Under the pieces are notes generated by a model. It did not search any database and was not told the DNA's origin. It was given only the letters and a program-made list of their open reading frames with translations. The position numbers and the translations under genes were made by a program. DNA of 64,000 nucleotides from Simmondsia chinensis (lineage: Eukaryota; Streptophyta; Magnoliopsida; Caryophyllales; Simmondsiaceae): contig JAGTTD010000010.1 in assembly GCA_018398585.1 (NCBI GenBank), forward strand, positions 30,358,638-30,422,637. Direction: 5' to 3'. Positions within the stretch are counted from its first letter, which is position 1, and each line of letters begins with the position of its first letter. Shown in pieces: positions 4,794-52,705 of this stretch.

Positions 4794-4808
4794 AACAACC
4801 TCCTTATT

Positions 4809-5260: not shown

Positions 5261-5339
5261 AGCAAACATTTGCTAATATTGGCACTGCGAAAGTCCCCAA
5301 ATAGGGCTGTCACTAGTCGATTGGGCTGCTACAACCGCA

Positions 5340-6271: not shown

Positions 6272-6387
6272 TATAAAATTAATGCGACAAAGAAAGGCAA
6301 AAAAAAAAAAAAAAAGAAGAGAATGCTCACAAACAGTCAAGGTTCACGGCTAGAAGAAGGGAATATCGGACTTGCAAGATCAAGCCT

Positions 6388-18574: not shown

Positions 18575-18579
18575 CCAAT

Positions 18580-18959
18580 TGTTAAAATTTTGGATTTATT
18601 TTAATTGTATTTTATGTATTTTTCATGTTGTATTTCTCTTATGTAATACCTTAAATTAAATTACGATAGTTATTAGGTGTTTTATTTCTTAGTAGTAATT
18701 AAGTTTTTTTTAGCGGGACAATTAAGCTCCTCCTCTTCTCTTGCTTGTAACTGCCGGCCCCCTTCTTCAATTACCATGAATGGGGTATTTCATCTTCTAA
18801 CTTTGGATTCTCCTCCAATGGATTAAGTACTTTTCATTAACAAGTAAGATGGATTATAAATAGGTTTGGTTCTCATGTTAATACAATCATCCAATTCCAT
18901 TTTTTAGGAAGTGTTCTCTTTTAGTTCACTACTTCATCTTTGTCTTGTTAATTTTAACA
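18580..18959 (+). repeat. LTR A, 5' terminal LTR of the array (380 bp)
   Basis: Begins TGTTAAAATTTT directly after CCAAT and ends TTTTAACA before the primer site TGGTATCAGAATAGG (18960). A TATA box, TATAAATA, lies at 18855-18862. The family landmarks GCTCCTCCTCTTCTC and GTTAATACAATCATCC are present. Confidence 0.92.
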
Positions 18960-19087
18960 TGGTATCAGAATAGGTTTAGATCCAGAACTCCTCTTGTTTT
19001 TGCCCGTTTCTATAGCAGCCAAGTTTGTGAGCCATTTTTTTTTCGTTACTTGTTTTTGCTTGTGTTAGTTTTACGCATTGTTTTTCA

Positions 19088-19535
19088 ATGTATGAGGAAA
19101 ACTTTACTCAAACTTCTAATCAAAATGTTGTGCCAATTGTGATTTCAAGGGGAATTCCCGACTTGAACTCTCCCTATTATCTTCACCCCTTGGATCATTT
19201 GGGGCTTGTGTTTGTGAAAGATGTTTTGACGGGACCAAATATTCCGGCTTGGAGACGGTCCATTTTTAAAGTTTTAAAGGCGAAACGTAAAATTGGCTTT
19301 ATTGATGAATCATTTACAAAATTGGATGAAGATTCATTAGATTTCGAGAATTGGAATGCCTGTGATTCAATGGTGTCTTCATGGCTTTCAAATTCCGTGT
19401 CCAAAGAAATTAATGCCAGCATCACATATTTTGAAACTTCGCCGACATTTGGTTAGATTTAAATGAGCATTTTTCTCAAGGGAATGTTCCACGTATTTAT
19501 AAAATTAAGCGTGAAATTTCACACTTAAAACAAGC
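19088..19535 (+). pseudogene. Unit 1 first gag copy, truncated
   Basis: From MYEENFTQTSNQNV the frame runs through SPYYLHPLDHLGL, FENWNACDSMVSSWL and INASITYFETS, then loses frame near 19441 where the family has R-D-I-W-L-D-L-N. DNA similarity continues to about 19538 (CTTAAAACAAGCTAA) and then jumps into LTR sequence. It is a copia gag N-terminal half without knuckle. The structure LTR A - half gag - partial LTR - second gag shows a rearrangement inside unit 1. Confidence 0.85.
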
Positions 19536-19540
19536 TAAGT

Positions 19541-19626
19541 GTTCTCTTGTTAATACAATCATCCAATTCCATATTTTAGAAAGTGTTTTGTTTACTTCTT
19601 CATCTTTGTCTTATTAATATTTTACA
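19541..19626 (+). repeat. Partial LTR (3' 86 bp) inside unit 1
   Basis: The sequence from GTTCTCTTGTTAATACAATC to TTTTACA matches the 3' end of LTR A from 18869 onward and is followed at 19627 by a good primer site, TGGTATCAGAGCGG. The LTR part upstream of it (U3 and the TATA box) is missing; gag is joined directly to it. Confidence 0.88.
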
Positions 19627-19760
19627 TGGTATCAGAGCGGGTTTAGACCTAGAACTCCTCTTGCTTTCCCACGTTTCTACAACAGCCAAGATTGTGAGCC
19701 AAAATTTTATTTTGTTACTTGTTTTTCCTTGTGTTAATTTTGCGCATTGTTTTACGATGT

Positions 19761-20640
19761 ATGAGGAAAACTTAACTCAAACTTCTAATCAAAATGTTGC
19801 GCCAATTGTGGTTCCAAGGGGAGTTCCCAACGTGAACTCTCCCCATTCTCTTCACCCCCAGGGGCTCGTGTTTATCGTTTTAACCAGACCAAATTTTTCG
19901 GCTTGGAGACGGTCTATTTTTTAAGTTTTTAAGGAAAAATGTAAAATTTGCTTTCTTGAAGGATCAATTAAGAATCTGGATGAAGATTCATCGGATTTCG
20001 AGAATTGGAGTGCATGTGATTCAATGGTGTCTTCATGGCTTTCCAATTCCGTGTCTAAAAAAAATTAATGCTAACATCGCATATTTTGAAACTTCGCGTG
20101 ATATTTGGCTAGATTTAAATAAGCGTTTTTCTGAAGGTAATGTCCCACATCTTTACGAAATTAAGCGTGAAATTTCACACTTAAAACAAGCTAACTTGCC
20201 CTTTTTTTTTATTATTTCACGGAATTGAGGCCACTGTGGGATGAACTTTACGCTCTAGTGGCCATACCTTGTACTTGTGGTTCCGCCCATGCTTTTGCGC
20301 TAATTAGAGATATGGAGAGAATCCTAGATTTATAGATGGGTTTGGATCCATCTTTTTAAACTGTGCATTCCCAACTAATGAGCACTAAAACTCTCCCTGA
20401 TGTTGTAAGTACATACTCAACACTTTTTCAAGAAGAAAAACAGCAAGGTTTTGCCTCTGGTAGTGTTGTGGTCCTTGAAGCAACGACTCACGTTTCAAAA
20501 GAAAATAATGTGGGTATGGGAGGAAATGTGCCTTCTAATGGAAACCTTCAAAACTTAATAGTCGCTTGTCTTGCTATCATTGTAAAAGACAAGGATGGAC
20601 AAGGGAGCGTTGCTATGAACTCATTGGTTATCTTACTGAG
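19761..20640 (+). pseudogene. Unit 1 second gag with altered CCHC knuckle
   Basis: It restarts with MYEENLTQTSNQNV at 19761, with a deletion in the PSDHPRLVF region. It then runs through frame changes to the HSQLMSTKTLPDV segment (20363) and a knuckle at 20565-20615 that reads CYHCKRQGWTRERC, where the His of C-x2-C-x4-H-x4-C is Trp. ELIGYL follows. Gag would package element RNA; this copy cannot be translated as one protein. Confidence 0.85.
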
Positions 20641-21961
20641 AGGAGACAATGTGGATCGAATGCAAGATAATGGGTTGCAGTCGCTGCGCCAGCAACAACA
20701 ATAGCACGCACTGCGGCAACGCGTGTCACTGCTGCTGCCGAGACCGGACACGGCTTTTAGCGCAAGTGCAACTGCTTTTGATAGCCCCTTTGCTAGGCTT
20801 TCCAAGACTCAATATCAACAGTTGCTTGCCTTTCTCAGTAATGAGAATAGTTCTCCTTGTCTTCAAAAGACATTACTCTTGAAAATGTCTTACAAAGTAC
20901 TGGTTTTCATTGCAATTTACTTTCCGCAAGTAAGTCAACAAGAGATAGAAATTGTGCATTAACTTTCTTTCAAAAATTTTGTGTTATACAGGACCTTCAA
21001 TTGAGGAGGCTGATTGCAGTCAGTAGAGAGTGGGATGGGCCATACTACTTGGAATCACATGTGGGTCAAAGGGTTGCACATGCTCATAGTTCTACCAAGG
21101 AGACAATTTTGTGGCGTTGTAGGTTGGGCCACATTCTGTTTGCCAAGTTGCCTAGTTTTCTGAATTTCAATTTTCAAGTTGATGTTGATGTTGTTTGTTA
21201 TTCGGGTCATCAAACAAAGCAGACCTGTTTACCTTTCATTTTATCTGTTAGGAAAAATGTTGGATGTTTTGATTTGTAGCATTGTGACATTTGGGGTCCA
21301 TATCGGACTTTATCTATGACAGGCATCCGCTTCTTTCTTATGATTGTCCATGATTTTGGTAGAAGTACATGGATTTCCTTGAAGCGAGTCAAATCTCAGT
21401 CTCGCAAGATGCGTATGGATTTTTGTCAGTTTGCACAAACTCAGTACAATTCATAAGTTAAGCAAGTTAGAAGTGATAACAGCAGCGATTTTTTGTTTGG
21501 ACCACTACTAGAGTTTTATGCAGGGAAAGGAATTCAATTTCAAAATTCATGTAGAGACGCACCATAACACAATGGAGCAGTTGAAAGGAAGCATCGTCAC
21601 TTGTTGGAAGTTGCTTGTGCCCTCCGATTTGAAGCCAGCCTTCCTAAGCATTTTTGGGGAGAATGTGTGGTGATAACGGCATATTTGATCAATCTTATGC
21701 CCACTCTTTAGTTACAAAATTGCTCTCCTTATGAGGTACTTTTGGGGAAAGATTCCTTCTTATGGCCTTTTATGTGTCTTCGGTTGTTTGTGTTATGTTC
21801 ATTCAAAGGATCGTAATAAACTAGAGTATCGTGCTAATCAATGTGTTTTCATTGGGTACCCCCACGGGAAGAAGGGATACAAGGTGTTTTACTTGGACAA
21901 TAAGAAAATTGTCATTTCACGTGACGTTGTTTTTCATGAGGAGAGATTTCCATATCTTTAA
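20641..21961 (+). pseudogene. Unit 1 integrase region; protease active site deleted
   Basis: After the gag linker, the SSPC motif (20851) is joined almost directly to the segment DITLENVLQST (near 20870). The W-I-I-D-x-G-A-S-D-H-M protease core found in units 2-4 is missing, a deletion of roughly 190 bp. The gag-pre-integrase part is open at 20857-21279 (RRLIAVSREWD, CRLGHILFAKLP). Integrase DNA continues with stops to FHEERFPYL at 21961. Confidence 0.85.
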
Positions 21962-22080
21962 AAATAGGGGCAAAATCTTTATCAAGATAAATCAACACTT
22001 CTACCAAGATTTGTGGATAACCGTGTTACAAAGGGGACGTTCCCCACAAGTGCTACTGTGAGGGGGCGGAGGAAGTTGCG

Positions 22081-23870
22081 ATGGGTAGGCCGGTGCGTGC
22101 TCGTTCGACGCTGGTTAAATATCAAGATTATGTTTGTGACATTCCATCTTCCTTAGTCCATCCCCCCACTACCACTCCTTCGGCTAACTTAGGTATAAAA
22201 TTTCCTTTATCAAATTTTGTTTCAAATGCACAGTTTTCTAACTCACATTCAGCTTTTTTTTGGGGCCATCACATCTTGTGATGAACCAAAGCATTTTGCT
22301 TTGGTTGTTCAATTTTCTCATTGGAGAGAAGCGATGGAGATGGAAACTTCAGACTTAGAACAAAACAAGACTTGGAGTTTCAAAAACTTGCCATTGACCC
22401 AAAATGCATATACAAGATCAATTATAAGTCAGATATAGAGTCTAAATGGGTCTACAAGATCAATTATAAGTCAGATATAGAGTCTAAATGGGTCTACAAG
22501 ATCAATTATAAATCAGATGGGTCAATAGAGTGTTACAAGGGTTGTCTTGTAGCAAAGTACACTCAAGTTGAAGGTATAGATTACAATGATAGCTTTGCGC
22601 CCATAGCAAAACTCATAACTATTCGTCATGTCCTTGTAGTTGCAGCTGCCCGAAATTTGGTTATGCATCAATATGATGTAAATAATGCCTTTTTATATGG
22701 AGATTTAGGTGAGGAAGTTTATATGAAATTACCCCAAGATTTTGACAAAAGGCATGAAGGGAAAGTTTGTCGCTTGCGTAATTCACTTTATGGTTTAAAA
22801 CAAGCCTCTCGTAATCAGAATCAAATTTTTTTATTTTCCTCTCATAATGGAAATCAAAACTTTATTTATTTTCTCGCAAGTGTGTGATTTACTAAGTCTA
22901 AATTTGATTACTCGTTATTTAACTATTCGAACGGGTCGATTTTTACAAGTGTGTTAGTATATATTGATGATGTTATCGTAATAGGAAACGATATGCGCCA
23001 TATAGAAGATGTCAAAACCTCGCTTGATAATTGGAATAAAAAATTTGGGACTAGTTAAATTGTTCTAGGGATTGAGGTAGCTCATTCCAAAGAGGGTTTA
23101 GTTTTGAGCTAACGAAAATATGCGCTTAGCATTTTAAGTTAAGTCGGGCCCTTAGGTGCCAAGCCAATTTCTACACCTATCATTTAAAACCATGGTTCAA
23201 TTGATCTAGAAGGGGATCGTGTTGAGGAATCAGGTCGGTACCGATTTTTGGTAGGTACATTGCTTTATCTTACCGTTACCCGACCTAATATTTATTAAGC
23301 CAGTTTATGCACGATCCAAGAATTCCGCATGTAGAGTCCGCTTATCGTGTTCTTTGTTATGTTAAGGGCTCAACGGGTCAAGGATTGTTTCTTCCTCATA
23401 ATTGTGATTTTAATCTTCATGCATACTGTGATTTTATTAGGCAAGTTGTCCATTCACTAAACGGTCCACAACCGGGTTTGTTGTCTTTCTTGGTGACGCC
23501 CCAATTTTTTGGTGTTCCAAGAAACAATTAGTTTTTTCTCTTTCATCAATAGAAGCAGAGTACCGTGCGATTATTGTAGTAACTAGAGAATCGGTTTGGT
23601 TACGTGGACTTTCGTATGGCCTAAAGGTTAGAATTGATCAATCGGTTATATTATTTTGTGACAATCAAGCGGCTCTTCAGAATGCCTCCAATCCGGTTTT
23701 TCATGAAAAGACCAAACATATCAAAGTTGACTGTCATTTTGTTCGAGAACAGTTGGTGGGGAAGGAAATCTCAACATCCTACGTTCGCTCCATGGGTAAA
23801 GTGGTGGAAATTTTCACAAAAGACTCTTGGTTTTCTTCTATTTTCCACTTTTCTTCCCAAGTTGGGAATT
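22081..23870 (+). pseudogene. Unit 1 RT and RNase H with 42-bp triplication
   Basis: The RT frame 22321-22887 holds [20 protein letters not shown], the first catalytic Asp in [13 protein letters not shown] and [12 protein letters not shown]. The second catalytic box near 22957 reads LVYIDDVIV (family Y-V-D-D). Near 22400-22510 a 42-bp segment coding for [14 protein letters not shown] is repeated in tandem, in frame. RNase H pieces run from PHVESAYRVLCYVKGSTGQG (23331) to the end at about 23870, with stops between them. Confidence 0.88.
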
Positions 23871-23901
23871 GTTAATTTATATACTCCAACTTGAGAGGGA
23901 G

Positions 23902-24450
23902 TGTTAAAATTTAGGATTTATTTTAATTGCATTTTATTTATTTTTCATGTATTATTTCCTTTACATAATTATCTTAAATTAAATTAGGGTAGCACAAGGT
24001 TGGCGACCTCATTGGAAGTCCTTAGGTTGGGAGTACTCGGAAACCTGAAGGGGGAAGGCTATATACACCCACCCCCCCAAAGGCCGCGACCCTATGTAGG
24101 CGGGAGACCTTGGGGTACAAGGAACGTTGCTTTGTTGTTACCTTGAATTAAATTAGGATGGTTATTAGGTGTTTCATTTCCTAGTAGTAATCAAGTTTTT
24201 TTTTAAGGAAAATTAGGCTCCTCCTCTTCTCTTGCTTGTAACTACCGGCCCCCTTCTTCAATTGCCATGAATGGGTGTTTCATCTTCTAGCTTTGGATTC
24301 TACTCCAATGCAATAAGTGCCTTTCACTTCCTAGTATGATGTATTATAAATAGGTTTGGTTCTCCTGTTAATACAATAATCCAATTTCATATTTTAGGAA
24401 GTGCTCTTTTTTAGTTTACTTCTTCATCTTTGTCTTATTAATTTTTTACA
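23902..24450 (+). repeat. LTR B, shared by units 1 and 2, carrying a SINE
   Basis: Starts TGTTAAAATTTAGG after the purine tract CTTGAGAGGGAG and ends TTTTTTACA before the primer site TGGTATCAAAGCGG at 24451. It is 549 bp long because of the SINE insertion at 23989-24138 and its duplicated target. Its TATA box is TATAAATAGG near 24346. Confidence 0.92.
23989..24138 (+). mobile_element. Au-like SINE inserted in LTR B with 19-bp target duplication
   Basis: The flanks at 23970-23988 and 24139-24157 are TATCTTAAATTAAATTAGG and TACCTTGAATTAAATTAGG, 17 of 19 matching. The ~150-bp body starts AGCACAAGGTTGGCG (A-box-like region). It has a degenerate B box, GGTTGGGAGTACTCGG, at 24025-24040, then the Au-family-like GGGGGAAGGCT...ACACCC tail and GGCGGGAGACC, and ends TTTGTTGTT. 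Plant SINEs are transcribed by Pol III and moved by LINE enzymes. The boxes here are mutated, so it is probably silent. Confidence 0.75.
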
Positions 24451-25470
24451 TGGTATCAAAGCGGTTCCCACGTTTCTGCAGTAGCCAAGTTTGTGAGCCT
24501 TTTTTTTTTCACTTGCTTTTGCTTGTATTAATTTTGTGCATTGTTTTACAATGTATGAGGAAAACTCCAACTTCTAATAAAAATGTTGCACCAATTGTGG
24601 TTTCAAGGACAGTTCGTGACATGAACTCTCCCCATTATCTTCATCCCTCGGATCATTCGAGGCTTGTGTTTGGGCAAGATGTTTTCTCCGTACCAAATTT
24701 TTTGGCTTGGAGACCGTCAATTTTTAAAGTTTTTAAGAAAAAACTTAAAATAGGCTTTCTTGATGGATCAATTACGAAACTAAATGAAGATTCATCAGAT
24801 TTCGAGAATTGGAGTGCATGTGATTCAATGGTGTCTTCATGGCTTTCCAATTCCGTGTCTAAAAATATTAATGCTAGCGTCACATATTTTGAAACTTCGC
24901 GTGACATTTGGCTAGATTTAAATGAGCTTTTTTCTCAAGGGAATGTCCCACGTATTTATGAAGTCAGCATGTAATTTAACACTTAAAACAAGCTAACATG
25001 CCCATGTTTAATTATTTCACAAAATTTAGGTCATTGTGGGATGAACTTTACACTGTAATGGCCATATCCCCCGATACTTGTGGTTTTGCCTGTGCTTTTG
25101 TACCAATTAGAGATATGGGGAGAATCTTAAATTTATTAATGGGGTCGGATCCATCTTTTTCAACTGTGCATTCCCAACTAATGAACTCTAAAACTTTCCC
25201 AAATGTTGCAAGTTCATATTCAACACTTTGTGAGGAAGAGAAATAACAAAGTGTTGCCCCTAGTAGTGTTGTGGTCCGTGAAGCAACAACTTTTGTTGCA
25301 AAGGAAAATGCTATGGGTATAGGAGGAAATGCACCTTCTGACGGACAACCTCCAAATATTAATAATCCCTTGTCTTGCTGTCATTGTAAAAGATAAGGAC
25401 ATACAAGGGGGCGGTTCTATGAACTCATTGGTTGTCCCGCTGGGTGGAAACAATGTGGATCGAATGTCGA
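24451..25470 (+). pseudogene. Unit 2 gag with altered knuckle
   Basis: The primer site is at 24451. The gag frame begins at MRKTPTSNKNV (24557) and runs through SPHYLHPSDHSRL, FENWSACDSMVSSWL and DIWLDLNELFSQGNVPRIYE to a stop near 24974. It resumes at 24998-25246 (FRSLWDELYTVMAI, SFSTVHSQLMN). The knuckle near 25370-25425 reads CCHCKR, then a stop, then GHTRGRFYELIG, so the last Cys is Phe. Confidence 0.88.
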
Positions 25471-25699
25471 AAAACGAGTTGCAGAAGCTGTCGCACAGCC
25501 GCATTGCAAGTAGCAACAATAGCACACACTGCAGCAACACGCGCCGCTACTGTTGCCGGGACCAGACACGGCTTTTTGTGCAAGTACGAGAGCTTCTAAC
25601 AGCCCCAATGCCGGGTTTTTCGGGACCAATTATCAACGTTTGCTTTCCCTTCTCAGTAAAAAGAATAGGTCTCCTTGTGTTAAACTTAACAGGTTAGGT

Positions 25700-26980
25700 A
25701 CTTGAGTAATAATGGTTGGATTATTGATATTGCTACTTCCGACCATATGGTCAGCTTAGATTATGCTCTAGACGATGTTTTTAACTACAAAGTGATTAAA
25801 CCAATCAAGCTTCCGAATGGGTCAACATTACCTGTTTTGCATTATCTGTCTTACAAATTCCCTGTTTTCATTGCAATTTACTTTCCACAAGTTAGTTGAC
25901 AAGAGAGAGAAATTACGTATTAACTTTCTTTCAAAAATTTTGTGTAATATAGGACCTTCAATCGAGGAGGCTGATTGGAGTTGATAAAGAGTGGGATGAG
26001 CTACACTACTTGGAGTCAAATGTGGGTCCGAGGGTTGCACATGCTCGTGATTCTACAAAGGAGACGATTTTGTGTCATTGCGGGGTGAGCCACATTTCGT
26101 TTGCCAAGTTGCCCAATTTTCAGAATTTGAAATTTCAAGTTGATGTTGATGGTGTTTGTGACTTGTGTCAGCGATCAAAGAACTCTCTTTTACCTTTCCC
26201 TTTACCTATTAGCAAAGCTATTGGATGTTTGAGTTTTGTTGCAATGTGACATTTGGGGTTCGTATCGGACCTTATCAATGACAGGCACCCGCTTCTTTCT
26301 TACGCGTGCCGATCATTTTAGTAGATATACATGGGCCCAGTTGATGTGAGACAAATCTCAGTCTCATAAGATGCCTATGGATTTCTATTAATTTATGCAA
26401 ACAAAGTACAATTCACAAGGTATGCACATTAGATGTGATAATGGTATCGAATCTTTGTTTGGACCACTACTTGAGTATCATGCGGGGAAAGGAATTCAAG
26501 TTCAAAATTTGTGTAGAGATGCACCAAACCAAATGGTGTGGCTAAAAGGAAGCATCGTCACTTGTTGGAAGTTGCTCGTGGCCACCAATTTGAAACCCGC
26601 CTTCCTAAGCATTTTTGGGGAGAATGTGTGTTGACAGCACCATATTTGGTCAATCTTATGTCCACTCCTCGGTTGTAAAATAGCTCTCCTTATGAGATAC
26701 TTTCTGGGAAGATTCTTTCTTATGGTCATTTACGTATCTTTGGTTGTTTGTGTTATGTTCATTCAAAGGATTGTGATAAATTTGAGTATCGTGCTAATTG
26801 ACATGTTTTCATTAGGTACCCTCATGGGAAGTAGAGTTACAAGGTGTATAATTTGGACAATAAGAAAATTGTCATTTCACGTGATGTTGATTTTCATGAG
26901 GAGACATTTCCTGATCTTTAAATACAGGGTTAAAATGTTTATCAAGATGAATCGGCATTTCTACCAAGATTGTTAAATAA
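25700..26980 (+). pseudogene. Unit 2 protease and integrase
   Basis: The protease core at 25711-25760 reads WIIDIATSDHMVSLDYALDD: the catalytic Asp is present but the Gly after D-x is Ala and the next Ala is Thr. KLPNGSTLPVLH follows. Integrase pieces are HCGVSHISFAKLPNFQNL (26076-26130), HIRCDNGIESLFGPLLEY (26426-26480, second Asp present) and the terminal FHEETFPDL-like segment near 26920. Frames are broken throughout. Confidence 0.87.
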
Positions 26981-27339
26981 TGGTGTTACGGAGGAAATGT
27001 TCCCCACACGTGTGGCAGTACCACCACTGCAGAATGGTGATGCTACCACTATCACTGACTGACACCAAGAAGAGGGTGTCGGTCAGCCTATGGTTGACCA
27101 AGAGGGGGAGGAGGCAGTTGCGATGGGTAGGCCGGTGCGTGCTCATTGAATGCCGGTTAAATATCAAGATTACATTTGTAAAATTCCATCTTCGTTAGCC
27201 CATACTGCCACTACAAAGCCTTCGGCTAACTCAGGTATAAAATATCCTTTATCAAATTTATTTTCAAATGCATAGTTTTCTAACTCACATTTAGCTTTTC
27301 TTGGGGCCATCACATCTCATGATGAGTCAAAGTATTTTG

Positions 27340-28840
27340 CTCAGGTGCTACAATTATGTCATTGGAGAGAAGTGAGGAGAAGGAAAATTCAGCATTAGAA
27401 TAAAAAAAGGGCTTGAAGTTTGTAAAGCTTGCCACCTGAAAAACGAGACATTGGCTCGAAATGGGTATACAAGATCAAGTATAAATCAGATGGGTCGATA
27501 GAGCATTACAGGGCTCATCTTGTTGCAAAAGAGTACACTCAGGTTGAAGGTATAGATTACCATGACACTTTTGCACCCGTAGCGAAACTTGTGGCTGTTC
27601 ATTGTGTTCTTGCAGTTACAGCTGCTAGAAATTGAGGGGTACATCAATTGGATGTCAATAGCACCTTTTTAAATGAAGATTTGGATAAGGAAGTTTATAT
27701 GAAATTACCCCATGGTTTGAGAAAAGGCATGAGGGGAAGGTTTGTCGCATGCGTAGGTCACTTTATGTTTAAAACAAGCGTCTCGCAATTGGAATAAAAA
27801 ATTTGTTTCTTTTCTTACAAGTGTGGGTTTTACTCAGTCTAAATCCGATTACTCATTATTTACCTATTCGAACGGGTCAATTTTTACTAGTGTGTTAGTA
27901 GGTGTTGATGATGTTATCATAACATGAAATGATATGCGTCATATAGAAGATGTCAAAACCTTGCTTGATTACAGATTTGGAGTGAAGAATTTGGGACCGG
28001 TTAAGTTATTTTAGGGCTTGAGATAGCTTTTTCCAAAGAAGGTTTAGTTTTGAGTCAACGAAAATATGTGCATGACATTTTAAGTGAAGCCGAGCTCTTA
28101 GGTGCCAAGGCGATTCCTACACCTATTGTTCAAAACCATGGTTCAATTTATCTAGAAGGGGTCACGTCGAGGAACCGGGTCGGTACTGACGTTTGGTAGG
28201 TAGATTGCTTTTATCTTACCATTACCCGACCTAATATTTTTTATGCTTTAAGGATATTAAGTCAGTTTGTGCACGATCTAAGAATTCCGCATTTAGAGGC
28301 CGCTTATCGTGTTCTTTGTTGTGTTAAGGCTCACATGGTCAAGGATTGTTTCTTCCTCTAAATTACGATTTTAATTTCGTGCATGCTGTGATGGTTATTG
28401 GGCAGGTTGTCCATCTACTAGATGGTCCACGATCATGTTTGTTGTCTTTCTTGGTGACGCCCCAAATTCGTGGCATTCTTTTGTTGTTTCTCGTTCTTTA
28501 GTGGAAGCAGAGTACCGTGCCAAGGCTTCAGTAACTAGTGATTTGGTTGGTTCTGTAGAATCCTGTGCAACCTAAAGGTTAGAATTGATCAACCGGCTAT
28601 TCTATTTTGTGACAACCAAGCGGCTCTTCACATTGCCTCCAATCCGTTTTTCTATGAAAGTACCAAACATATTGAATTTGACTGTTATTTTCATCAAGAA
28701 AAGTTGGCAGCCAAGGAAATCACAACATCCTATGTTCGGTCTATGGGTCAAGTGGCGGATATTTTCATAATGGCTCTTGGTTTTTCTCTGTTTTCCACTT
28801 TTCTTCCAAAGTATGGCATTGTTAATTTATATGCTCTAAC
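27340..28840 (+). pseudogene. Unit 2 RT and RNase H
   Basis: An open piece at 27429-27635 carries [20 protein letters not shown] and [21 protein letters not shown]. After a TGA near 27635 the DNA continues with QLDVNSTFLNEDL, and the second catalytic box near 27905 reads GVDDVII (Tyr lost). RNase H similarity runs from 28250 to about 28835 with DNQAALHIAS-like sequence at 28605-28640. It ends in the purine tract CTTGAGGGGAAG. Confidence 0.87.
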
Positions 28841-28851
28841 TTGAGGGGAAG

Positions 28852-29229
28852 TGTTCAAATTTAAGATTTATTTTAATCGTATTTTATTTTTTATTTTTTT
28901 TTGCTTTGATGTATTGACCTTGAATTTAAATTAGGATAATTACTAGGTGTTTTATTTCTTAGTAGTAATTAAGTTTATTTTATGAGGACTATTAAGCTCC
29001 TCCTCTTCTCTCGCTTACAACTACTGGCCCCCTTTTTCACTTTCCATGAATAGGGTGTTTCGTCTTTTAACTTTCGATTCTCCTCCAATGGAGTGAGTGC
29101 TTTTCATTTCCTAGTATGATGTATTATTAAAAGGTTGGTTCTCGTGTTAATACAATCATCCAGTTTCATATTTTGGGAAGTGTCCTCTTTTAATTTACTT
29201 CTTCATCTTTGTTTTGTTAATTTTTTCCA
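28852..29229 (+). repeat. LTR C, shared by units 2 and 3
   Basis: It is 378 bp, starting TGTTCAAATTTAAG after CTTGAGGGGAAG and ending TTTTTTCCA before the primer site TGCTACCAGAGCG at 29230. The TATA box has decayed to TATTATTAAAAGG near 29130. Confidence 0.9.
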
Positions 29230-29363
29230 TGCTACCAGAGCGAGTTTAGATCCAGAATTCCTCTTGCTGTACTAAGTTTCTGTAGCAGCCACGTTTGCGA
29301 GCCAATTTTATTTCTTTTTATTACTTGTTTTTGCTTGTGTTAATTTTTTCGTATTATTATACA

Positions 29364-30260
29364 ATGTATGAGCAAAACTCTACTCAAACTTCTAATCAAA
29401 ATGTTACGCCAATTGTGGGTTTAGGGGGAGTTCCCGGCGTGAACTATGTATTATCTTCACCCCTCGGATCATCTGCGGCTTGTGTTTGCGCAAGATGATT
29501 TGATCGGACTAATTTTTCCGGCTTGGGAACGGTCTATTTTTTAAGTTTTTAAGGCAAAACATAAAATTGGCTTTCTTGATGGATCAATTACGAAGCTAGA
29601 TGAAGATTTATTGGATTTTGAGAATCAAAGTGCATGAGATTCAATGGTGTCTTCATGGCTTTCCAATTCCGTGTCTAAGGAAATTAATGCTAGCGTGGTA
29701 GATTTTGAAACTTTGCATGACATTTTGCTAGATTTAAGGGAGCGTTTTCTCAACGGACTGTCCCACGTATTTACGAAATTAAGCGCGAAATTTAACACTT
29801 AAAACAAGCTAACATGCCCATTTTTTTTTTTTTATTATTTCACGAAATTGAGGTCATTGTGGGATGAACTTTACACTCCAATGGCTGTACCCCCTTGTAC
29901 TTGCGGTTCCACCCACGCTTTTTCACAAATTAGATATATGACAAGGATCCTAGATTTATGGATGGGTTTGGATTCGTCTTTTTTAACTGTGCATTCCCAA
30001 CTAATGAACACTAAACCTCTCCCTAATGTTGCAAATGCATATTCAACACTTTGTCAGGAAGAGAAACAATAATGTATTACCTCTAGTAGTGTTGTGGTCC
30101 CTGAAGCAACGGCTCTCATTGAAAAGGGAAATATTGTGTGTATGGGAGGAAATGTGCCCTCTAATGAGGAACCACTAAAATATAACAATCGCTTATCTTT
30201 CTCTCATCGTAAAAGACTGGGACATACAGCGAAATGTCGCTATAAACTTTTTTGTTAACT
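29364..30260 (+). pseudogene. Unit 3 gag, knuckle lost
   Basis: MYEQNSTQTSNQNV opens at 29364. The rest shows DNA-level identity to the other gags, with many stops after 29498. An open piece at 29848-30072 covers RSLWDELYTPMAV and LLTVHSQLMNTK-like sequence. At 30190-30240 the knuckle reads SFSHRKRLGHTAKC, so two of three Cys are replaced. Confidence 0.85.
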
Positions 30261-30504
30261 CGTCAAGTGGAAAAAATGTGGATCGAATGCTGGACAATGA
30301 GTTGCAATAGCTGTCCCACAACAACATGCATTAGAGCAGGACGTGTCACTGCTGCAGTCGGGACTAAACACGCCATTTGGTACAGGTCCGAGTTCTTCTA
30401 ACAACCCCATTGGTGGGCTTTTCGGGACTCAGGATCAACAGTTGCTTGCTCTTCTCAGTAACGTGAATAGTTCTCCTTGTGTTAACTTAACAGGCTAGGC
30501 ATAG

Positions 30505-31740
30505 TTTAGAAATAATGTTTGGATTACTGATTTTGGTGCTTCCAACCATATGATCAGTTCAGATTATGCTCTAGACAATATTTTTGACAACAAAGTGATT
30601 AAACCAATCAAGCTTCCGAATGGGTCAACATGACATGTTTCGCATGTTGGTCGAGCCTTGATATCAAAAGATATTAGTCTTGACGATGTCTTACAAATTT
30701 CTGATATTCATGGCAATTTACCTTCAGCAAGTAAGTTGACAAGAAATAAAAATTGTGCATTAACTTTCTTTCCAAAATTTTGTTCAATACCAAACCTTCA
30801 GTCGAGGAGGCTGATTGCAGTCGATGGAGAGCAGGATGAGCTACACTATTTGGTGTCACATGTGGGTCTGAGAGTTGCACGTTCTCATGGTTCTACAAAG
30901 GAGAAAATTTTGTGGCATCGTAGATTTAGCAGCTTTCCCTTTGCCAAGTCGCGTAGTTTTCAGAATTTGAATTTTCAAGTTGATATTAATGTTGTTTGTG
31001 ACTTGTGTCATCGAGCATAGTCGACTCGTTTACCTTTCCCTTTACTTGTTTGCAAAATTGTTGGATGTTTTGATTTGTTGGGGACCATATCAGACTATAT
31101 CTATGACAGGCGCCCACTTCTTTCGTACAAATTGTCGATGATTTTAGTAGTTGTATAAAGGTTTACTTTCTGCGAAACAAATCTCAGTCTCACAAGATGC
31201 TTATGAATTTTTGTCAATTTGTACAAACTCGGTACGATTCACAAGTTAAGCAAGTTAGAAGTTATAATGGTAGCAAATCTTTGTTTGGACCACCACTTGA
31301 GTTTTATGCAGGGAAAGGAATTGAAGTTTAGAGATACACCACAACAAAATGGTGTGGTTGAAAGGACGCATCTCGTGCCTTCCGATTTGAAGCCAACCTT
31401 CCTAAACATTTTTGGGGGGAATATGTGTTGATAATGGCATATTTGATCAATCTTAAGGCCACTTCTCAGTTGCAAAATCGCTTTCCTTATGAGGTGCTTT
31501 TTGTGGAAGATTCCTTCTTATGGTCTTTTATGTGTCTTTGGTTGTTTGTGTTATGTTCATTCAATGGATCGTGATAAACTAAAGTATTGTGCCAATCGAC
31601 GTGTTTTCATTGGGCACCCTCATGAGAAGAAGGGTTACAAGGCATACGACTTGGACAATAAGATAATTGTCATTTCACCGTGACAATTTTTTTTTGGGGA
31701 GCGATTTCCATATCTTGAAAAACAGGGTCAAAATATTTAT
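30505..31740 (+). pseudogene. Unit 3 protease and integrase
   Basis: The protease core near 30520-30560 reads WITDFGASNHMISSDYALDN, which keeps D-x-G-A-S although neighbouring residues differ. The frame 30658-31020 holds the gag-pre-integrase part (DISLDDVLQISDIHGNLPSA, RRLIAVDGEQDE). Integrase follows with stops and a deletion around 31070. A later piece at 31489-31683 carries GLLCVFGCLCYVHSMDRDKL and HPHEKKGYKAYDLDNK. Confidence 0.86.
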
Positions 31741-32039
31741 CAAGACAAACCGGCATTTCTACGAAGATTTGTGGATAACGGTGTTACGACGGGGACGTTC
31801 CCCACACGTGCCATCGGGAGGGGGAGGAGGAAGTTGCAATGGGTAGGCCGGTGCATGCTAGTTCGATGCCGCTTAAATATCAAGATTATATATGTGACAT
31901 TCCTTGTTCGTTAGCCCATCCCCCCACTACCACTCCTTCGGCTAACTTAGGTATAAAATATCCTTTATCAATTTTTTTTTCAAATGCATAGTTTTCTAAC
32001 TCATATTCACCTTTTCTTGGGGCCATCACATCTTCTTAT

Positions 32040-33525
32040 TAGCCAAAGTATTTTGCTCCGGCTCTCATTGGAGAGAAATGATGGAGATGGAAATTTCAGC
32101 ATTAGAACAAAAAAAGACTGGGAGTTTCGAAAACTAGCCATTGACTCGAAATGAGTATACAAGATCAAGTATAAATCAGATGGGTCGATAGAGCATTACA
32201 AGGCTCGTCTTATTGCAAAAGGGTACACTCCGGTTAAAGGTATGGATTACCGTGATAGTTTTGCGCCTGTAGCAAAACTCCTAACTATTCCTTGTGTTCT
32301 TGCAGTTGCAGCTGCCCGAAATTTTGTTATACATCAATTGGATGTCAATAATACCTTTTTACATGGAGATTTATCTAAGGACATTTATATGAAATTACCC
32401 CAAGGTTCTGAGAAAAGTCCTGAGGGGATGGTTTGCTGCTTGCGTAAGTCACTTTATGGTTTAAAACAAGCCTTTCATAATTAGAATAAAAAATTTGTTT
32501 CCTTTCACACAAGTGTAGGGTTTACTCAGTCTAAACCCGATTAGTCGTTATTTACCTATTCAATAGGTCAATTTTTACAAGTGTATTAGTATATGTTGAT
32601 GATGTTATCGTAAGAGGAAACAATATCGTCATATAGAAGATGTCAAACCCTCGCTTGATAACAAATTTGGAATAAAGAATTTTGGACCGGTTAAGTTTTT
32701 ATAGGGATTGAGGTAACTCTTTCCAAAGAGGGTTTAGTTTTGAGTCGATGAAAACATGTGCTTGACTTTTTAAGTGAAGTCGAGCACTTAGGTGCCAAGC
32801 CGGTTTCTACACCTATCGTTTAAAACAATGTGTTAATTGATCTGAAAGGGGATCGTGTTGAAGAATCAAGTCGATACCGAATTTTGGTCAGTACATTGCT
32901 GACCTAATATTTGTTATGATGTACAGATATTAAGTCAGTTTATGCATGATCCAATAATTCCGCATTTAGAGACCACTTATCATGTTCTTCGTTATGTTAA
33001 GGGCTCAATGGGTCCAGGATTGTTTCTTCCTTATAATTTGAATTTAATCGTCGTGCATGCTGTGGTATTTATTAGGCAGGTTATCCATTCACTAAACGTT
33101 CCACGACCGAGTTTGTTGTCTTTCTTCGTGAGGGCCCAATTTTGTGGCGTTTCAAGAAACAATTAGTTTTTTCTCGGTCTTCAGCGGAAGCAGAGTGCCG
33201 TGCCATGGATACAGTAACTAGTGAATCAGTTGGGTTCCGTACACTTTTGTGGGATCTAAAGGTTAGAATTGGTCAATCAGCTATTTGATTCTGTGACAAC
33301 AAGGCGACTCTTCGCAATTCCTCCAATCTGGTTTTCAATGAAAGGACCAAACATATCACAGTTGACTGTCATTTTGTTAGACAAAAGTTGGTAGCCAAGA
33401 AAATCTCAACGTCCTACTTTCGCTCCATGGGTAAAGTTGCAGAAATTTTTACAAAGGCTCTAGGCTTTCTTCTATTTTCATCTTTTCTTCCCAAGTTGGG
33501 CATTGTTAATTTATATGCTCTAACT
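32040..33525 (+). pseudogene. Unit 3 RT and RNase H
   Basis: The open piece 32242-32484 contains [34 protein letters not shown] and [12 protein letters not shown]. Near 32587 the box VLVYVDDVIV is intact at the residue level. RNase H runs 32935-33500 with deletions (for example around 32900). The unit ends in CTTGAGGGGAAA before LTR D. Confidence 0.87.
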
Positions 33526-33535
33526 TGAGGGGAAA

Positions 33536-33921
33536 TGTGAACATTTAAAATTTATTTTAATTGTATTCTATGTATTTTTCATGTATTATTTCTTTTATTT
33601 AATTACCTTGAATTAAATAAGGATAGGTATTAGGTGTTTTATTTCTTAGTAGTAATTAAGGTTTTTTTCCCCCCCAGGACAATTAAGCTCCTCCTCTTCT
33701 CTTGCTTGTAACTACCAGTCCCCTTCTTTAATTGCCATGAATGGGGTGTTTCATCTTCTAGCTTTGGATTCTTCTCCAATGCAATAAGTGCTTTTCATTT
33801 CCTGGTATGATGTATTATAAATAGGTTTGGTTCTCATATTGATACAATCATCCAATTCCATATTTTAGCAAGTGTTTTCTTATAGTTTACTTCTTCAACT
33901 TTGTCTTGCTAATTTTATACA
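33536..33921 (+). repeat. LTR D, shared by units 3 and 4
   Basis: It is 386 bp, starting TGTGAACATTTAAAA after the purine tract and ending TTTTATACA before the primer site TGGTATCAATGCGG at 33922. The TATA box TATAAATAGG lies near 33817. A C8 run near 33670 is specific to this copy. Confidence 0.9.
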
Positions 33922-34047
33922 TGGTATCAATGCGGGTTTTGATCTCGAACTCCTCTTGCTTTCCCATGTTTCTGCAGCAGCCAAGTTTGGGAGCCCTTTT
34001 TTTTTTGGTTACTCACTTTTGCTTGTTTTTAATTTGCGCATCGTTTT

Positions 34048-34960
34048 ATGATGTATGAGGAAAACTCTACTCAAACATCTAATCAAAATGTTGCGCCAAT
34101 TGCGGTTTCAAGGCGAGTTCCCGATGTGAACTCTCCCTATTATCTTCACCCCTCAGATCATCCGAGGCTTGTGTTTATGCAAGATGTTTTGACCGAACCA
34201 AATTTTTGGGCTTGGAGTCAGTCTATTTTTAAAGTTTTTAAGACAAAACTTAAAATCGGCTTTCTTAATGGATCAATTACGAAATTGGCTGAAGATTCAT
34301 TGGATTTCGAGAATTGGAGTGCATGTGATTCAATGGTGTCTTCATGGCTTTCCAATTCCGTGTCTAAATAAATTAATGCCAGCGTGGCATATTTTGAAAC
34401 TTCACGTGACATTGGCTAGATTTAAAAAAGCATTTATCTCAGGGAAATGTCCCATGTATATATGAAATTGAGCATGAAGTTTAACACTTAAAACAAGCTA
34501 ACATGCCCACGCTGAATTATTTCATGAAATTCAGGTCATTGTGGGATGAACTTTACACTATAGTGGCCATACCCCCTTGTACTTGTGGTTCCGCCCACGC
34601 TTTTGAAGGAATTAGAGATATGGAGAGGATCCTAAATTTATTGATGGGATTGGATCCATCTTTTTCAACTGTGCATTCCCATCTAACGAACACTAAATCT
34701 CTCCCTAATATTGCAAGTGCATATTCAACACTTTGTCAAGAAGCGAAACAACAAAGTGTTTCCTCTGGTAGCTTTGCGGTCCCTGAAACAACGGCTCTCG
34801 TTTAAATATGAAATAATGTGGGTATGGAAGGAAATATGCCCTCTAATGGGCAGCCTCCCAAATCTTAATAATCGCTTGTCTTGCTCCCATTGTAACAGAT
34901 AAGGACATACAAGGGGGCGTTGCTATGAACTCATTAGTTGTCCTGCCGGGTGCAAACAAT
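34048..34960 (+). pseudogene. Unit 4 gag
   Basis: The frame MMYEENSTQTSNQNV runs to SNSVSK-stop at 34371, then frame shifts. The second part, 34503-34805, has NYFMKFRSLWDELYTIVA, SFSTVHSHLTNTKSLPN and CQEAKQQSVSS. The knuckle near 34878-34930 reads CSHCNR, then a stop, then GHTRGRCYEL, so all Cys/His ligands remain but a stop interrupts it. Confidence 0.88.
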
Positions 34961-35198
34961 TTGGATCGAATGCAGGAAAATAGGTTGCCGCTGTTGCCGC
35001 ACAATCACATTTCAAGTAGCAGGAACAGCACACACTGCAGCAGCACATGCTGCTGCTGTTGCCGGGACCAGACACGCCTTTTGGTGTAAGTATGAGTGCT
35101 TTTGATAGCCCCATTGCCTAGCTTTTCAAGAATCAGTATCAATAGTTGCTTGCCCTTCTCAGTAACGAGAATAGTTCTCCTTGTGTTAACTTAATAGA

Positions 35199-36460
35199 TT
35201 GAGCATTTTTAGTAATAATGTTTGGATTATTGATATTGGTGCTTCCGACCATATGGTCAGTTTAGATTATGCTCTAGACGATGTTTTTGATGGCAAAGTG
35301 ATTAAAACAGTCAAGCTTCCGAATGGGTCACCATTATCAGTTTTGTATGTTGGTCGAGCTGTGATATCAAAAGTAATTAGTCTTGAAAATGTCTTACAAA
35401 TTCTCAATTTTCGTTGAAATTTACTATCCGCAATTACGTTGACAAGAGATAGAAATTGTGTTTCTTTCCAAAATTTTGTGTAATGTAGGACCTTCAATCG
35501 AGGAGGCCGATTGGAGTCCATAGAGAGCGGGAAGGGCTTCACTACTTGGAGTCAAATGTGAGTCCAAGGGTCGCACATGCTCATGATTCAACCAAGGAGA
35601 CAATTTTGTGGCATCGCAGGTTGAACCACATTCCATTTTCGAAGTTGCCCAGTTTTCTGAATTTGAATTTTCAAGTTGATTTTGAAGTTGTATTTGACTT
35701 GTGTCATCGATCAAAGAAGACTTGTTTACCTTTCCCTTTATCTAATAGCAAAGCAGTTGGATGTTTGGATTTGTTACAATGTGACATTTGGGGTCTGTAT
35801 CGAACCTTATCTATGACACGGTCCCACTTCTTTCTTACAATTGTTGATGATTTTAGTAGATTTACGTGGCTCAGTTGATGCAAGACAAATCTTTGTCTCA
35901 AAAAATGCCTATGGATTTTTTTCAATTTGTACAAACTCAATACAATTCACAAAGTAAGCACGTTAGATGTGATAATTGTATCGAATCTTTGTTTGGACCA
36001 CTCCTTGAGTTTTATGCAGGGAAAGGAATTCAAGTTCAAAACTCATGTAGAGACACACCAAAAAAAATGGTCTGGTTGAAAGGAGGCATCGCCACTTGTT
36101 GGAAGTTGCTCGTGCCCACCAATTTGAAGCTAGCCTTCCTAAGCATTTTTGGGGAGGATGTGTGTTGACGGCAACATATTTGGTCAATCTTATGCCACTC
36201 CTAGATTGCAAAATCGCTCTCCTTATGACGTACTTTTGGGGAAGTTTTTTTCTAATTGTCATTTACGCGTCTTTGGTTGTTTTTGTTATGTTCATTCAAA
36301 GTATCCTTATAAATTTGAGTATCATGATAATAGGTGCTTTTTCATTCGATACCCTCACGGGAAGAAGAGTTACAGCGTGTATGATTTGGAAAATAAGAAA
36401 ACTGTCATTTCACGAGACATCGTTTTTCATGAGGAGAGATTTCCTTATCTTTAAAATCAG
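35199..36460 (+). pseudogene. Unit 4 protease and integrase (best-preserved protease of the array)
   Basis: The protease frame 35199-35417 reads NNVWIIDIGASDHMVSLDYA with an intact D-I-G-A-S core, then KLPNGSPLSVLYVGRAV. Integrase pieces are LWHRRLNHIPFSKLPSFLNL, CDIWGLYRTLSM with the first Asp (35546-35878), HVRCDNCIESLFGPLLEFYA with the second Asp (35866-36168) and GCFCYVHSKYPYKFEY to ISRDIVFHEERFPYL (36149-36454). Frame breaks separate them. Confidence 0.88.
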
Positions 36461-36879
36461 GGTTAAAATGTTTATCAAGATGAATCAGCATTTCTACCAA
36501 GATTGTTAGATACCAGTGCTATGGAGGGGACGTTTCCCACACGTGCGGCACCCACCATTGTAGAATGTTGGTGCTGCCATTGTCACTAACTGACACCAAG
36601 AGGAGGGTGTCAGTCAACCTTTGGTTGACCGAGAGGGGGACGAGGAAGTTGTGAGGGGTAGGCCGTTGCGTGCTTGTTGAATGCCGATTAAATATAAAGA
36701 TTATATTTGTGACGTTCCATCTTTGATAGCCCATCCCCCTACTACAACTCCTTCAACTAACTCATGTATAAATATCCTTTATCAAATTGTACAGCTTTCT
36801 AACTCACATTCGGCTTTTCTTGGGGCCATCACATCTTGTGATGAGCCAAAGTCTTTTCCTCTGGCGGTACCATTTTCTC

Positions 36880-37720
36880 ATTAGAAAGAAGCGATGGAGA
36901 AGGAAATTTCAGCGTTACAACAAAACAAGACTTGGAGTTTGGAAAACTTGCCACAAGGAAAATGAGCCATTGACTCGGAATGGGTATACAAAATCAAGTA
37001 TAAATTAGATGCGTCGATAGAGCATTACAAGGCTCATCTTGTAGCAAAAGGGTACACTCAGGTTGAAGGTATAGATTACCATAACACTTTTGTGCCCATA
37101 GCGAAACTTGTGACTGTTCCTTGTGTTCTTGCAGTTGCAGCAGCAAGAAATTGGGTTGTACATCAATTGGATGTCTATAACGCCTTTTTAAATGAACATA
37201 TTGATGATGAGGTTTATATGAAATTACCCCAAGGTTTTGAGAAAAGGGATGAGGAGAAGGTTTCTCACATGCATAATTTACTTTATGGATTAAAACAAGC
37301 CTCTCGTAACTGGAATAAAAAATTTGTTTTGTTTCTCACAAGTGTGGGGTTTACTTAGTCTAAATCCGATTACTCGTTATTTACCTATTTGAAAAGGTCG
37401 ATTTTTACAACGTGTTAGCATATGCTGATGATGTTATCATAACAGGGAACAATATGCATCATATAGAAGATGTCAAAACCTTGCTTGATAACAAATTTGG
37501 AATAAAAAATTTGGGCCCGGTTAAGTATTTTCTAGGGATTGAGGTAGCTCGCTCCAAGGAGGGTTTTGTTTTGAGTCAATGAAAATATGCGCTTGACATT
37601 TTAAGTGAAGCCAAGCCCTTAGGTGCCAAGACGGTTTCTACACCTATCGTTCAGAACCATGGTTCAATTGATCAGGAAGGGGATTGTGTTGAAAAACCGG
37701 GTAAGTACCGACGTTTCATT
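36880..37720 (+). pseudogene. Unit 4 reverse transcriptase
   Basis: Pieces in order: [54 protein letters not shown] (first Asp kept, 37155-37215), [15 protein letters not shown], and near 37410 LAYADDVIITGN, where the usual Val of the Y-V-D-D box is Ala. The stretch NLGPVKYFLGIEVARSKEGF follows near 37507. Several stops remain. Confidence 0.88.
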
Positions 37721-37726
37721 GGTCGA

Positions 37727-38389
37727 TTGCTTTATCTTACCATTACCCGACCTGATATTTGTTATGTTGTACAGAAAGTAAGTCAATTTATGCACCACCC
37801 CAGAATTCCGCATTTAAAGGCCGCTTATCGTGTTCATCGTTATGTTAAGGGCTCACCGGGTCAAGTGTTTTTTCTCCCTCATAATTGTGATTTTAATCTT
37901 TGTGCATACTGTAATACAGATTGGGCAGGTTGTCCATCCACTAGACAGTGTACGACCGGGTTTGTTATCTTTCTTGGTGACTGCCCAATTTCGTGGCGTT
38001 CCAAGAAACAATCAGTTGTTTCTTGTTCTTCCGCAAAAGCAGAGTACCATGCCATGGCTACGGTAACAAGTGAAATGGTTTGGTTACGTGGACATTTGTG
38101 CGACCTAAAGGTTAGAATTGATCAACCAGCTATTTTATTTGGTGACAACCAAGCGGCTCTTCACATTGCTTCCAATCCTGCTTTCCATGAAAAGATCAAA
38201 CATTTCGAAGTTGACTGTCAATTTGTTAGAGAAACATTGGTGGCCATGGAAATCTCAACATCCTACATTCGCTCCATGGGTCAGGTGGCGGATATTTTCA
38301 CAAAGGCTCTTGGTTTTCTTCTATTTTCCACTTTTCTTCTCAAGTTGGCATTGTTAATTTACATACTCCAACTTGAGGGGAAATGTTAA
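37727..38389 (+). pseudogene. Unit 4 RNase H domain, still open (220 aa)
   Basis: This is the longest uninterrupted pol frame in the array. It includes LYLTITRPDICYVVQKVSQF, YCNTDWAGCPSTRQCTTGFV with the catalytic Asp, SSAKAEYHAMA with the catalytic Glu, GDNQAALHIASNPAFHEK with the next Asp, and the terminal SMGQVADIFTKALG segment typical of copia pol ends. The family's catalytic residues are preserved. It ends just inside LTR E. The upstream RT is broken, so it would only be made from a cryptic start. Confidence 0.88.
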
Positions 38390-38763
38390 AATTTAGGATT
38401 TATTTTAATTCTATTCTATGTATTTTTCATGTATTATTTCATTTACGTAATTACCTTGAATTTGAATAAGGATTGTTATTAGATGTTTTATTCCTTAGTA
38501 GTAATTAAGTTTTTTAGGAGGACAACTAAGCTCCTCCTCTTCTCTTCCTTGCAATTGCCAGCCCCATTCTTCAATTGCCATGATGCAGTGTTTCATCTTC
38601 TAACTTTGGATTCTCCTCCAGTGGAGTATGTGCTTGTCATTTCTTAGTATGATGTATTCTAAATAGGTTTGATTCTCATGTTAGTACAATCATCCAATTC
38701 CATATTTTAGCATGTATTCTCTTTTAGTTTACTTCTTCATCTTTGTCTTGTTAATTTTTTACA
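38384..38763 (+). repeat. LTR E, shared by unit 4 and the gag-only unit
   Basis: It is 380 bp, starting TGTTAAAATTTAGG after CTTGAGGGGAAA and ending TTTTTTACA before the primer site TGGAATCAGAGCAGG at 38764. The TATA site reads TCTAAATAGG near 38658, mutated from TATAAATAGG. Confidence 0.92.
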
Positions 38764-38890
38764 TGGAATCAGAGCAGGTTTAGATCCACAACTCCTCTCG
38801 CTTTTCCACGTTTCTTCAGTAGCCAAGTTTGTGAGCCAATTTTTTTTTTCTTTACTTGTTTTTTCTTGTGTTAATTTTGCCCATTGTCTT

Positions 38891-39802
38891 ATGATGTATG
38901 AGGAAAACCCTACTCAAACGTCTAATCAAAATGTTGAGCCAATTGTGGTTTTAGGGGGAGTTCCCCACGTGAACTCTCCGTATTATCTTCACCCCTCGAA
39001 TAGTCCGCGGCTTGTGTTTGTGCAAGTTGTTGTGACCGCACCAATTTTTTCGGCATGGAGACGGTCTATTTTTAAAGTTTTTAAGGCGAAATGTAAATTT
39101 GTCTTTCTTGATGGATCAATTACGAAATCGGATGAAGATTCATCGAATTTTGGGAATTGGAGTGCATGTGATACAATGGTGTCTTCATGGCTTTCCAATT
39201 CTGTATCTAAAGAATTAATGCCAGCATCGCATATTTTGAAACTTCACGTAACATTCGGCTAGATTTAAGTGAACGTTTTTCTCAAGGGAATGTCCCACTC
39301 ATATATGAAATTAAGTGTGAAATTTTACACTTGAACAAGCTAACATGCCCTTGTTCGATTATTTCACGAAATTGAGGTCATTGTGGGTTGAATTTTACAC
39401 TTTAGTGACCGTACCCCCTTGTACTTGTGGTTCTGCCTATGCTTTTGTGCAAATTAGAGATATGGAGAGGATCCTAGATTTATTGATTTGTGTATATATG
39501 TCTTTTTCAATTGTGCATTCCCAACTAACGAATACTAAACCTCTCCCTAATGTTGCAAGTGCATACTCAGCACTTTGTTAGGAAAAGAAACAACAAAGTG
39601 TGACCTCTGGTGGTGTTGTGGTCTCGGAAGCAATGGCTCTCGTTGCAAAGGGAAATAATGTGGGTATGGGAGGAAATGCACCCTCTAATGTGAAACCTCC
39701 AAAACATAATAATCGCTTGTCTTGCTCTTATTGTCAAAGACGGGGACCTACAAGGGAGCGTTGCTATGAACTCATTGGTTATCCTACCGGGTGGAAACAA
39801 CA
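38891..39802 (+). pseudogene. Unit 5 gag only, fused to a partial LTR
   Basis: MMYEENPTQTSNQNV starts at 38891 and runs to about 39262 (FGNWSACDTMVSSWL). It resumes at 39345-39581 (FTKLRSLWVEFYTLV) and 39600-39800. The knuckle reads CSYCQRRGPTRERCYELIGY, with the His replaced by Pro. At TGGAAACAACATGG (39792-39805) gag passes straight into LTR sequence; protease, integrase, RT and RNase H are absent. Confidence 0.88.
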
Positions 39803-39894
39803 TGGTTCTAGTGTTAATACAATCATTCAATTTCATATTTTTGCTAGTGTTCTTTTAATTTACTTCTTCATCTTTGTCTTGTTAATTATTTTCA
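39803..39894 (+). repeat. Terminal partial LTR (3' 92 bp) closing the array
   Basis: TGGTTCTAGTGTTAATACAA to TTATTTTCA matches the 3' quarter of the array LTRs. It ends in CA and is followed at once by CCAAT (39895-39899), the partner of the CCAAT before LTR A. It lacks U3 and the TATA box. Confidence 0.88.
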
Positions 39895-40084
39895 CCAATG
39901 ACAATTATTAACCAAGCAATAATAACTTCTATAAATTACACTAATTTTGTACATATTTACAACTCTTTGTGATCCTAATAAAGTAATTTATTTAATTATG
40001 TAATTTTATATTTAGATTAAGGATATGTACCAATTTTCCATAGATAAATGCTAAAATATCATAGATCTAGGGCCAGCTTGAGTT

Positions 40085-52640: not shown

Positions 52641-52705
52641 GATGCTCAGGGTACTCATGGTGGCCGTAAAGGCCGTGGGGGTCCGCGATAGTTCTCCAGT
52701 CTCCC

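Follow-up and report, generated by a model that had tools for sequence, protein, structure and literature searches.

Tandem long terminal repeat (LTR) retrotransposons with a single target site duplication (TSD) have been described as common in plants, with their mechanism left open, and a single insertion has been inferred for the tandems of rice, Arabidopsis, almond, and cotton (PMC11899658). We analyzed a window of 64,000 nucleotides (nt) from Simmondsia chinensis (contig JAGTTD010000010.1, positions 30,358,638 to 30,422,637; GC content of 38%, with no N) that contains a dead Ty1/copia locus: four complete units and a truncated fifth are strung together via shared LTRs within one TSD. Like the tandems of those four plants, this array has alternating LTRs and interiors, shared internal LTRs, and one outer TSD. 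The two loci detailed in the same survey have two interiors, with 99% identity in one case, whereas the array has four full units and one truncated unit, 14 to 18% apart.

Template switching has been proposed as the origin of tandem complexes such as those of Angela and Opie (PMC1950507). Among them are copia (Angela) chains with a shared LTR and a 5-bp TSD, like the array, but these complexes have three LTRs and two interiors, and later events were not ordered. Passages of PMC4717578 describe arrays of terminal-repeat retrotransposons in miniature (TRIM) with up to five LTRs, four interiors, and one TSD, as found here, and passages of PMC7215508 describe Cassandra arrays with at least 12 LTR copies, some of them with truncated end units, as in our array. 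According to the same passages, TRIM and Cassandra elements are small and lack gag and pol, whereas the array consists of a gag-pol copia element and measures 21 kb in total. For LTRtype, passages of PMC5379124 count, in A. thaliana, 10 three-LTR elements and 4 that have more than three LTRs; unlike the present analysis, those passages, which cover A. thaliana and maize, give no histories of single arrays. Recombination within a family during bursts has been shown for Onsen, as passages of PMC5668417 state.

Tandems with one TSD are already known, and this locus is a long, old copia example whose history is partly readable. A preliminary description of the sequence had called such chains unusual; that overstated their rarity, since plant tandems are reported to be common (mostly with two interiors) and five-LTR TRIM arrays with one TSD appear in the passages cited above. 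An open-literature search of titles and passages found no array of this kind for which an in-place duplication of two units had been ordered. The origin of LTR-retrotransposon tandems is a stated open question in a 2025 survey (PMC11899658), and an old array with enough mutations to order events offers a way to answer it locus by locus. For this locus we favor, as a reading somewhat likelier to be right than wrong, one copia integration and a chain that grew in at least two steps, including in-place duplication of a two-unit block.

Array anatomy and shared LTRs

The array is made up of the following features.

18575..18579, no strand: left TSD copy, CCAAT, directly outside the first TG (18580)
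18580..23901, plus strand: unit 1, comprising LTR1 and an interior that includes a duplication and the 42-bp repeats
18580..18959, plus strand: LTR1 (TG...CA), set from alignment and flanking letters; primer site at 18960
23902..28851, plus strand: unit 2, comprising LTR2 (23902-24450), primer site at 24451, and interior
28852..33535, plus strand: unit 3, comprising LTR3 (28852-29229), primer site at 29230, and interior
33536..38383, plus strand: unit 4, comprising LTR4 (33536-33921), primer site at 33922, and interior
38384..39802, plus strand: unit 5, truncated, comprising LTR5 (38384-38763), primer site at 38764, and gag to ~39802
39803..39894, plus strand: sixth LTR, final 92 bp only, joined to gag at the LTR base used in unit 1
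39895..39899, no strand: right TSD copy, CCAAT, directly after the terminal CA at 39894

LTRs start at 18580, 23902, 28852, 33536, and 38384, each with a TG end and a primer-site motif after the LTR. They are ~380 bp long; four measure 378 to 386 nt, and LTR2 reaches 549 nt owing to an insert of ~169 nt (near 23969-24137) bounded by imperfect direct repeats, a candidate for the short interspersed nuclear element named in the preliminary description. LTRs of ~1.5 kb, suggested by the repeat table, were ruled out by the primer sites and the LTR alignment. As the preliminary description had claimed, all four internal LTRs have a purine-rich TTGAG... tract directly to the left and a primer site directly to the right, the latter resembling TGGTATCAGAGC with 1, 2, 2, and 1 mismatches, respectively. 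We take TGGTATCAGAGC to be a match to initiator Met-tRNA.

CCAAT flanks the two outer ends only. The sequence letters agree with the positions given for it earlier, and internal TSDs are absent, as also claimed: the 5-nt stretches bordering the four internal LTRs are unit sequence. Because the ends are TG...CA and there is a single 5-bp TSD, a single integration is probable, which supports the earlier view of one locus-level insertion turned chain. The description of a five-LTR chain with four interiors was partly correct. Five TG-ended LTRs and four full interiors are present; however, the array does not close with a complete LTR on the right, and a truncated fifth unit was overlooked, in which LTR5 (end at 38763) is followed by a primer site and gag (~1.04 kb) and then by 92 bp matching the LTR end. 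A 42-bp repeat, also reported earlier, occupies 22411-22518 in unit 1 (2.6 copies).

The array is a Ty1/copia LTR retrotransposon by its gag and reverse transcriptase (RT) domains, TG...CA LTRs, 5-bp TSD, primer site, and purine tract. RVT_2 was matched in unit 1 (E = 1.2e-28) and Retrotran_gag_3 in unit 5 (E = 2.7e-06). In unit 1, a stretch resembling gag_pre-integrs (E = 7.1e-05, under the curated cut-off) precedes RVT_2; no integrase core domain was matched among the open frames searched. The named sources of the RT matches, among the matches listed, are assorted flowering plants. Nothing in Rfam matched at gathering thresholds.

Grouping of units and proposed history

Four further features bear on the order of events.

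18869..19538, plus strand: unit-1 duplication, first copy (LTR end, primer site, and ~580 nt to mid-gag)
19541..20194, plus strand: unit-1 duplication, second copy, with primer site at 19627-19638
27013..27101, plus strand: stretch between the putative integrase region and RT in unit 2; the unit 4 counterpart is at 36547-36632
29813..30281, plus strand: putative crossover interval in unit-3 gag, from the match to the end of the unit-1 duplication to the match to the unit-5 break

In pol (alignment columns 2175-4990), grouping units 1 and 3 against units 2 and 4 was best by 63 log-likelihood units. Derived changes were found on both sides of this split (26 in units 1 and 3, 34 in units 2 and 4), and for that reason one block duplication could explain both pairs at once. 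At clean sites outside CpG and CHG, the counts for 13|24, 14|23, and 12|34 were 25:3:0 in columns 2214-3464 and 5:5:6 in columns 464-1464. The clean 3′ columns (2404) united units 2 and 4 at 73 sites versus 26 and 14 for the other pairings. Pattern counts were stable under three other alignment settings. Units 1 and 3 also share a length difference of ~82 nt: the counterpart of 27013-27101 has shrunk to ~6 nt in both (near 22053-22060 and 31811-31817, respectively), and the missing stretch breaks the frame. Over LTR and gag together, the best of 15 trees joined unit 2 with unit 4 and unit 3 with unit 5, as the block-duplication model predicts, and the gag bootstrap values for these pairs were 81 and 73. 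No unit pairing was significant in LTR or gag, which made an LTR tree, proposed earlier as a test of mechanism, uninformative.

These patterns are consistent with the following history. At or near insertion, the locus would already have contained roughly two complete units, X and Y, linked by LTRs to a third, Z, that broke off within gag, and the unusual junctions of gag to LTR in the first and last units (see below) would have been present; this first chain could have come from multimeric cDNA or from very early crossing-over. X and Y would then have decayed separately as dead copies for approximately the first 15% of their separation. The second step is placed after that point because the ratio of transversions within pol types to those across types was 0.85 (0.80 to 0.91). 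In it, one unequal exchange between Z gag and X gag would have copied the X-Y block; units 1 to 5 would correspond to X, Y, Z/X, Y, and Z, and only neutral decay would have followed.

The two-unit in-place duplication by unequal exchange in gag is supported, not proven, by the alignments. One such exchange fits the sister relationship of units 2 and 4 in pol, the resemblance of unit 3 to unit 1 in pol, the absence of the unit-1 duplication from unit 3, and the termination of unit 5 within gag. With a crossover downstream of the unit-1 duplication, probably within 29813-30281, unit 3 would lack the duplication despite its unit-1-like pol. A simple duplication of two units through a crossover in an LTR is disfavored, as gag and LTR have no clear pairing and unit 3 is without the unit-1 duplication. 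Unequal crossing-over between LTRs had been suggested in the preliminary description; an in-place exchange does suit the later growth, but the data point to a two-unit block and a crossover in gag rather than between LTRs.

Several observations weigh against this history. The favored LTR and gag tree is ahead by a mere 4 log-likelihood units, and the 5′ trees are not significant. With gag up to column 1515, the top tree joins unit 1 with unit 2 and unit 3 with unit 5, and LTRs alone favor units 4 and 5. The model expects units 2 and 4 to pair throughout, but in the clean 5′ columns (1315) this pair has 22 sites versus 17 and 17. Columns 4000-4464 favor no grouping, and a cluster of sites shared by units 1 and 2 at columns 1446-1502 hints at some conversion. 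The few nucleotides remaining at the 82-nt gap are unlike between units 1 and 3, leaving slight room for two separate deletions. Stops are also common to units 3 and 4 (two), 1 and 2 (one), and 2 and 3 (one), and one stop, near a frame-label boundary, is present in all four full units.

Decay of the units and rival explanations

Unit pairs differ at 13.9 to 18.3% of compared sites. Since they are this far apart, the array is not an assembly duplicate, and the preliminary description was right to call it old. To compare codon positions, frames were set from translated matches, columns with uncertain frame were excluded, and a related copia element at 2 to 6.7 kb of the window served as the outgroup. 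Relative to sites constant among the units, the outgroup differed at 0.26, 0.19, and 0.50 of codon positions 1, 2, and 3 (0.27, 0.18, and 0.49 in a second outgroup alignment), and the share expected for position 3 from this control was 52 to 53%. Private unit changes numbered 293, 282, and 270 at the three positions, and the sites splitting units 1 and 3 from units 2 and 4 numbered 29, 33, and 25. Because neither set has the position 3 excess of the outgroup control, the units diverged as dead copies and not as separate active elements. A codon-position test of this kind separates dead-copy decay from divergence of active parents. An apparent contrast in codon bias separating the two lineages lost strength on reanalysis (P = 0.06 to 0.17) and, with the frames used here, involves few sites (position 3, 4/24 versus 12/34).

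In-frame stops number 14, 21, 20, and 18 in units 1 to 4, respectively (1240 to 1295 codons each). The lesions had been described as private, and 45 of the 58 stop sites are indeed confined to one unit. The other 13 occur in two or more, including four common to units 2 and 4 and three common to units 1 and 3, and the ~82-nt difference is likewise not private. Unit 3 (28852-33535) carries 279 private changes versus 214 to 227 in the others (4049 columns), in LTR and interior alike.

LTR3, the fastest changing, was excluded from the LTR and gag sets when transversions were compared. Distances were 0.062 (0.042 to 0.085) for LTR1 versus LTRs 2, 4, and 5; 0.075 (0.068 to 0.083) in pol between types (units 1 and 3 versus 2 and 4); 0.064 (0.057 to 0.071) in pol within types; and 0.059 (0.041 to 0.079) for the unit-1 duplication. 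The cross-type/LTR1 ratio was 1.2 (0.88 to 1.80), and that of the unit-1 duplication to other gag pairs was 0.96 (0.65 to 1.35). Judged by these distances, the chain and the unit-1 duplication are roughly as old as the insertion, although the limits are wide. In a template-switching complex (PMC1950507), the outer LTRs would be expected to be alike, having come from one reverse transcription. Here, LTR1 and LTR5 differ at 12.7% and are not closer than other LTR pairs (11.0 to 17.0%); the sixth LTR is limited to 92 bp. CpG is scarce in the LTRs (zero in LTR4), a possible reason for their lower overall divergence.

The tandem duplication in unit 1 (~0.67 kb), absent from the preliminary description, runs from the LTR end through the primer site and ~580 nt toward mid-gag; its two copies differ at 13.9% and have only one paired site in common. 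At its join (19538-19541), gag meets the LTR base GTTCTC with 2 extra nt (19539-19540). The unit-5 join (39802-39808) leads from gag to the same LTR base within 1 to 2 nt (LTR position ~290), a correspondence spotted post hoc. The gag breakpoints are unlike, lying ~580 nt (unit 1) and ~1040 nt (unit 5) after the primer site. Microhomology is a weak candidate for the source of both joins, as the fraction of background gag positions that match equally well is 0.025 to 0.29 in three units. Nor is the shared base supported as a transcript start: TATAAATA begins only 14 nt upstream, and an element of this type is expected ~30 nt upstream of the start. We tentatively raise the possibility, which we rate well below an even chance, that the first chain was a reverse-transcription product and that both joins arose when strand transfer from one end of an RNA or cDNA was misdirected. 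If so, two events could be read separately at the locus: the integration of multimeric cDNA and, later, a crossover in gag that involved two units.

A single step could also have produced the array, if template switching between two co-packaged defective RNAs (A and B), which resembled each other over the 5′ half but differed in pol, yielded a five-unit cDNA alternating A-B-A-B that integrated once. The single TSD, the nearly starlike LTRs and gag, the equal ages of unit-1 duplication and chain, and the two joins at one LTR base all suit this scheme, and there are precedents in the template switching proposed for TSD-flanked tandem insertions (PMC1950507) and in the in-family recombination reported for Onsen in passages of PMC5668417. 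It requires repeated alternation and template reuse, however, and the sites separating A from B have no position 3 excess (25/87), so that both RNAs would have to come from long-dead copies; we think it unlikely.

Less likely still is a chain formed at once in which patchy gene conversion in pol later made unit 1 resemble unit 3 and unit 2 resemble unit 4. Such conversion would account for pairing that is mainly confined to pol and uneven along it, and for the cluster of unit 1 and 2 sites at columns 1446-1502. Both pairs share derived changes, so at least two conversions, one per pair, would be needed, and conversion must also cross the 82-nt gap. Finally, the units could be cDNAs of different active parents, or separate neighboring insertions, joined by recombination. 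Joining of cDNAs from independent parents had been offered in the preliminary description, and units 14 to 18% apart would agree with it, but the lack of a position 3 excess among private changes (270 of 845), the absence of internal TSDs, and the one matching outer pair make this very improbable.

Neighboring features in the window

The element used as the outgroup is a decayed related copia on the minus strand (2576-6334), ~65 to 77% alike in matched stretches, with SH3_retrovirus and gag matches. An open frame on the plus strand (42632-43063) has a Prolamin_like match (E = 4.6e-12) and is a possible host gene; a homologue search gave none passing. DUF4283 and RVT_1 matches at 51521-55043 on the plus strand perhaps mark a long interspersed nuclear element. 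A gag_pre-integrs match on the minus strand at 48434-48952 (E = 3.9e-12) is likely a further copia fragment.

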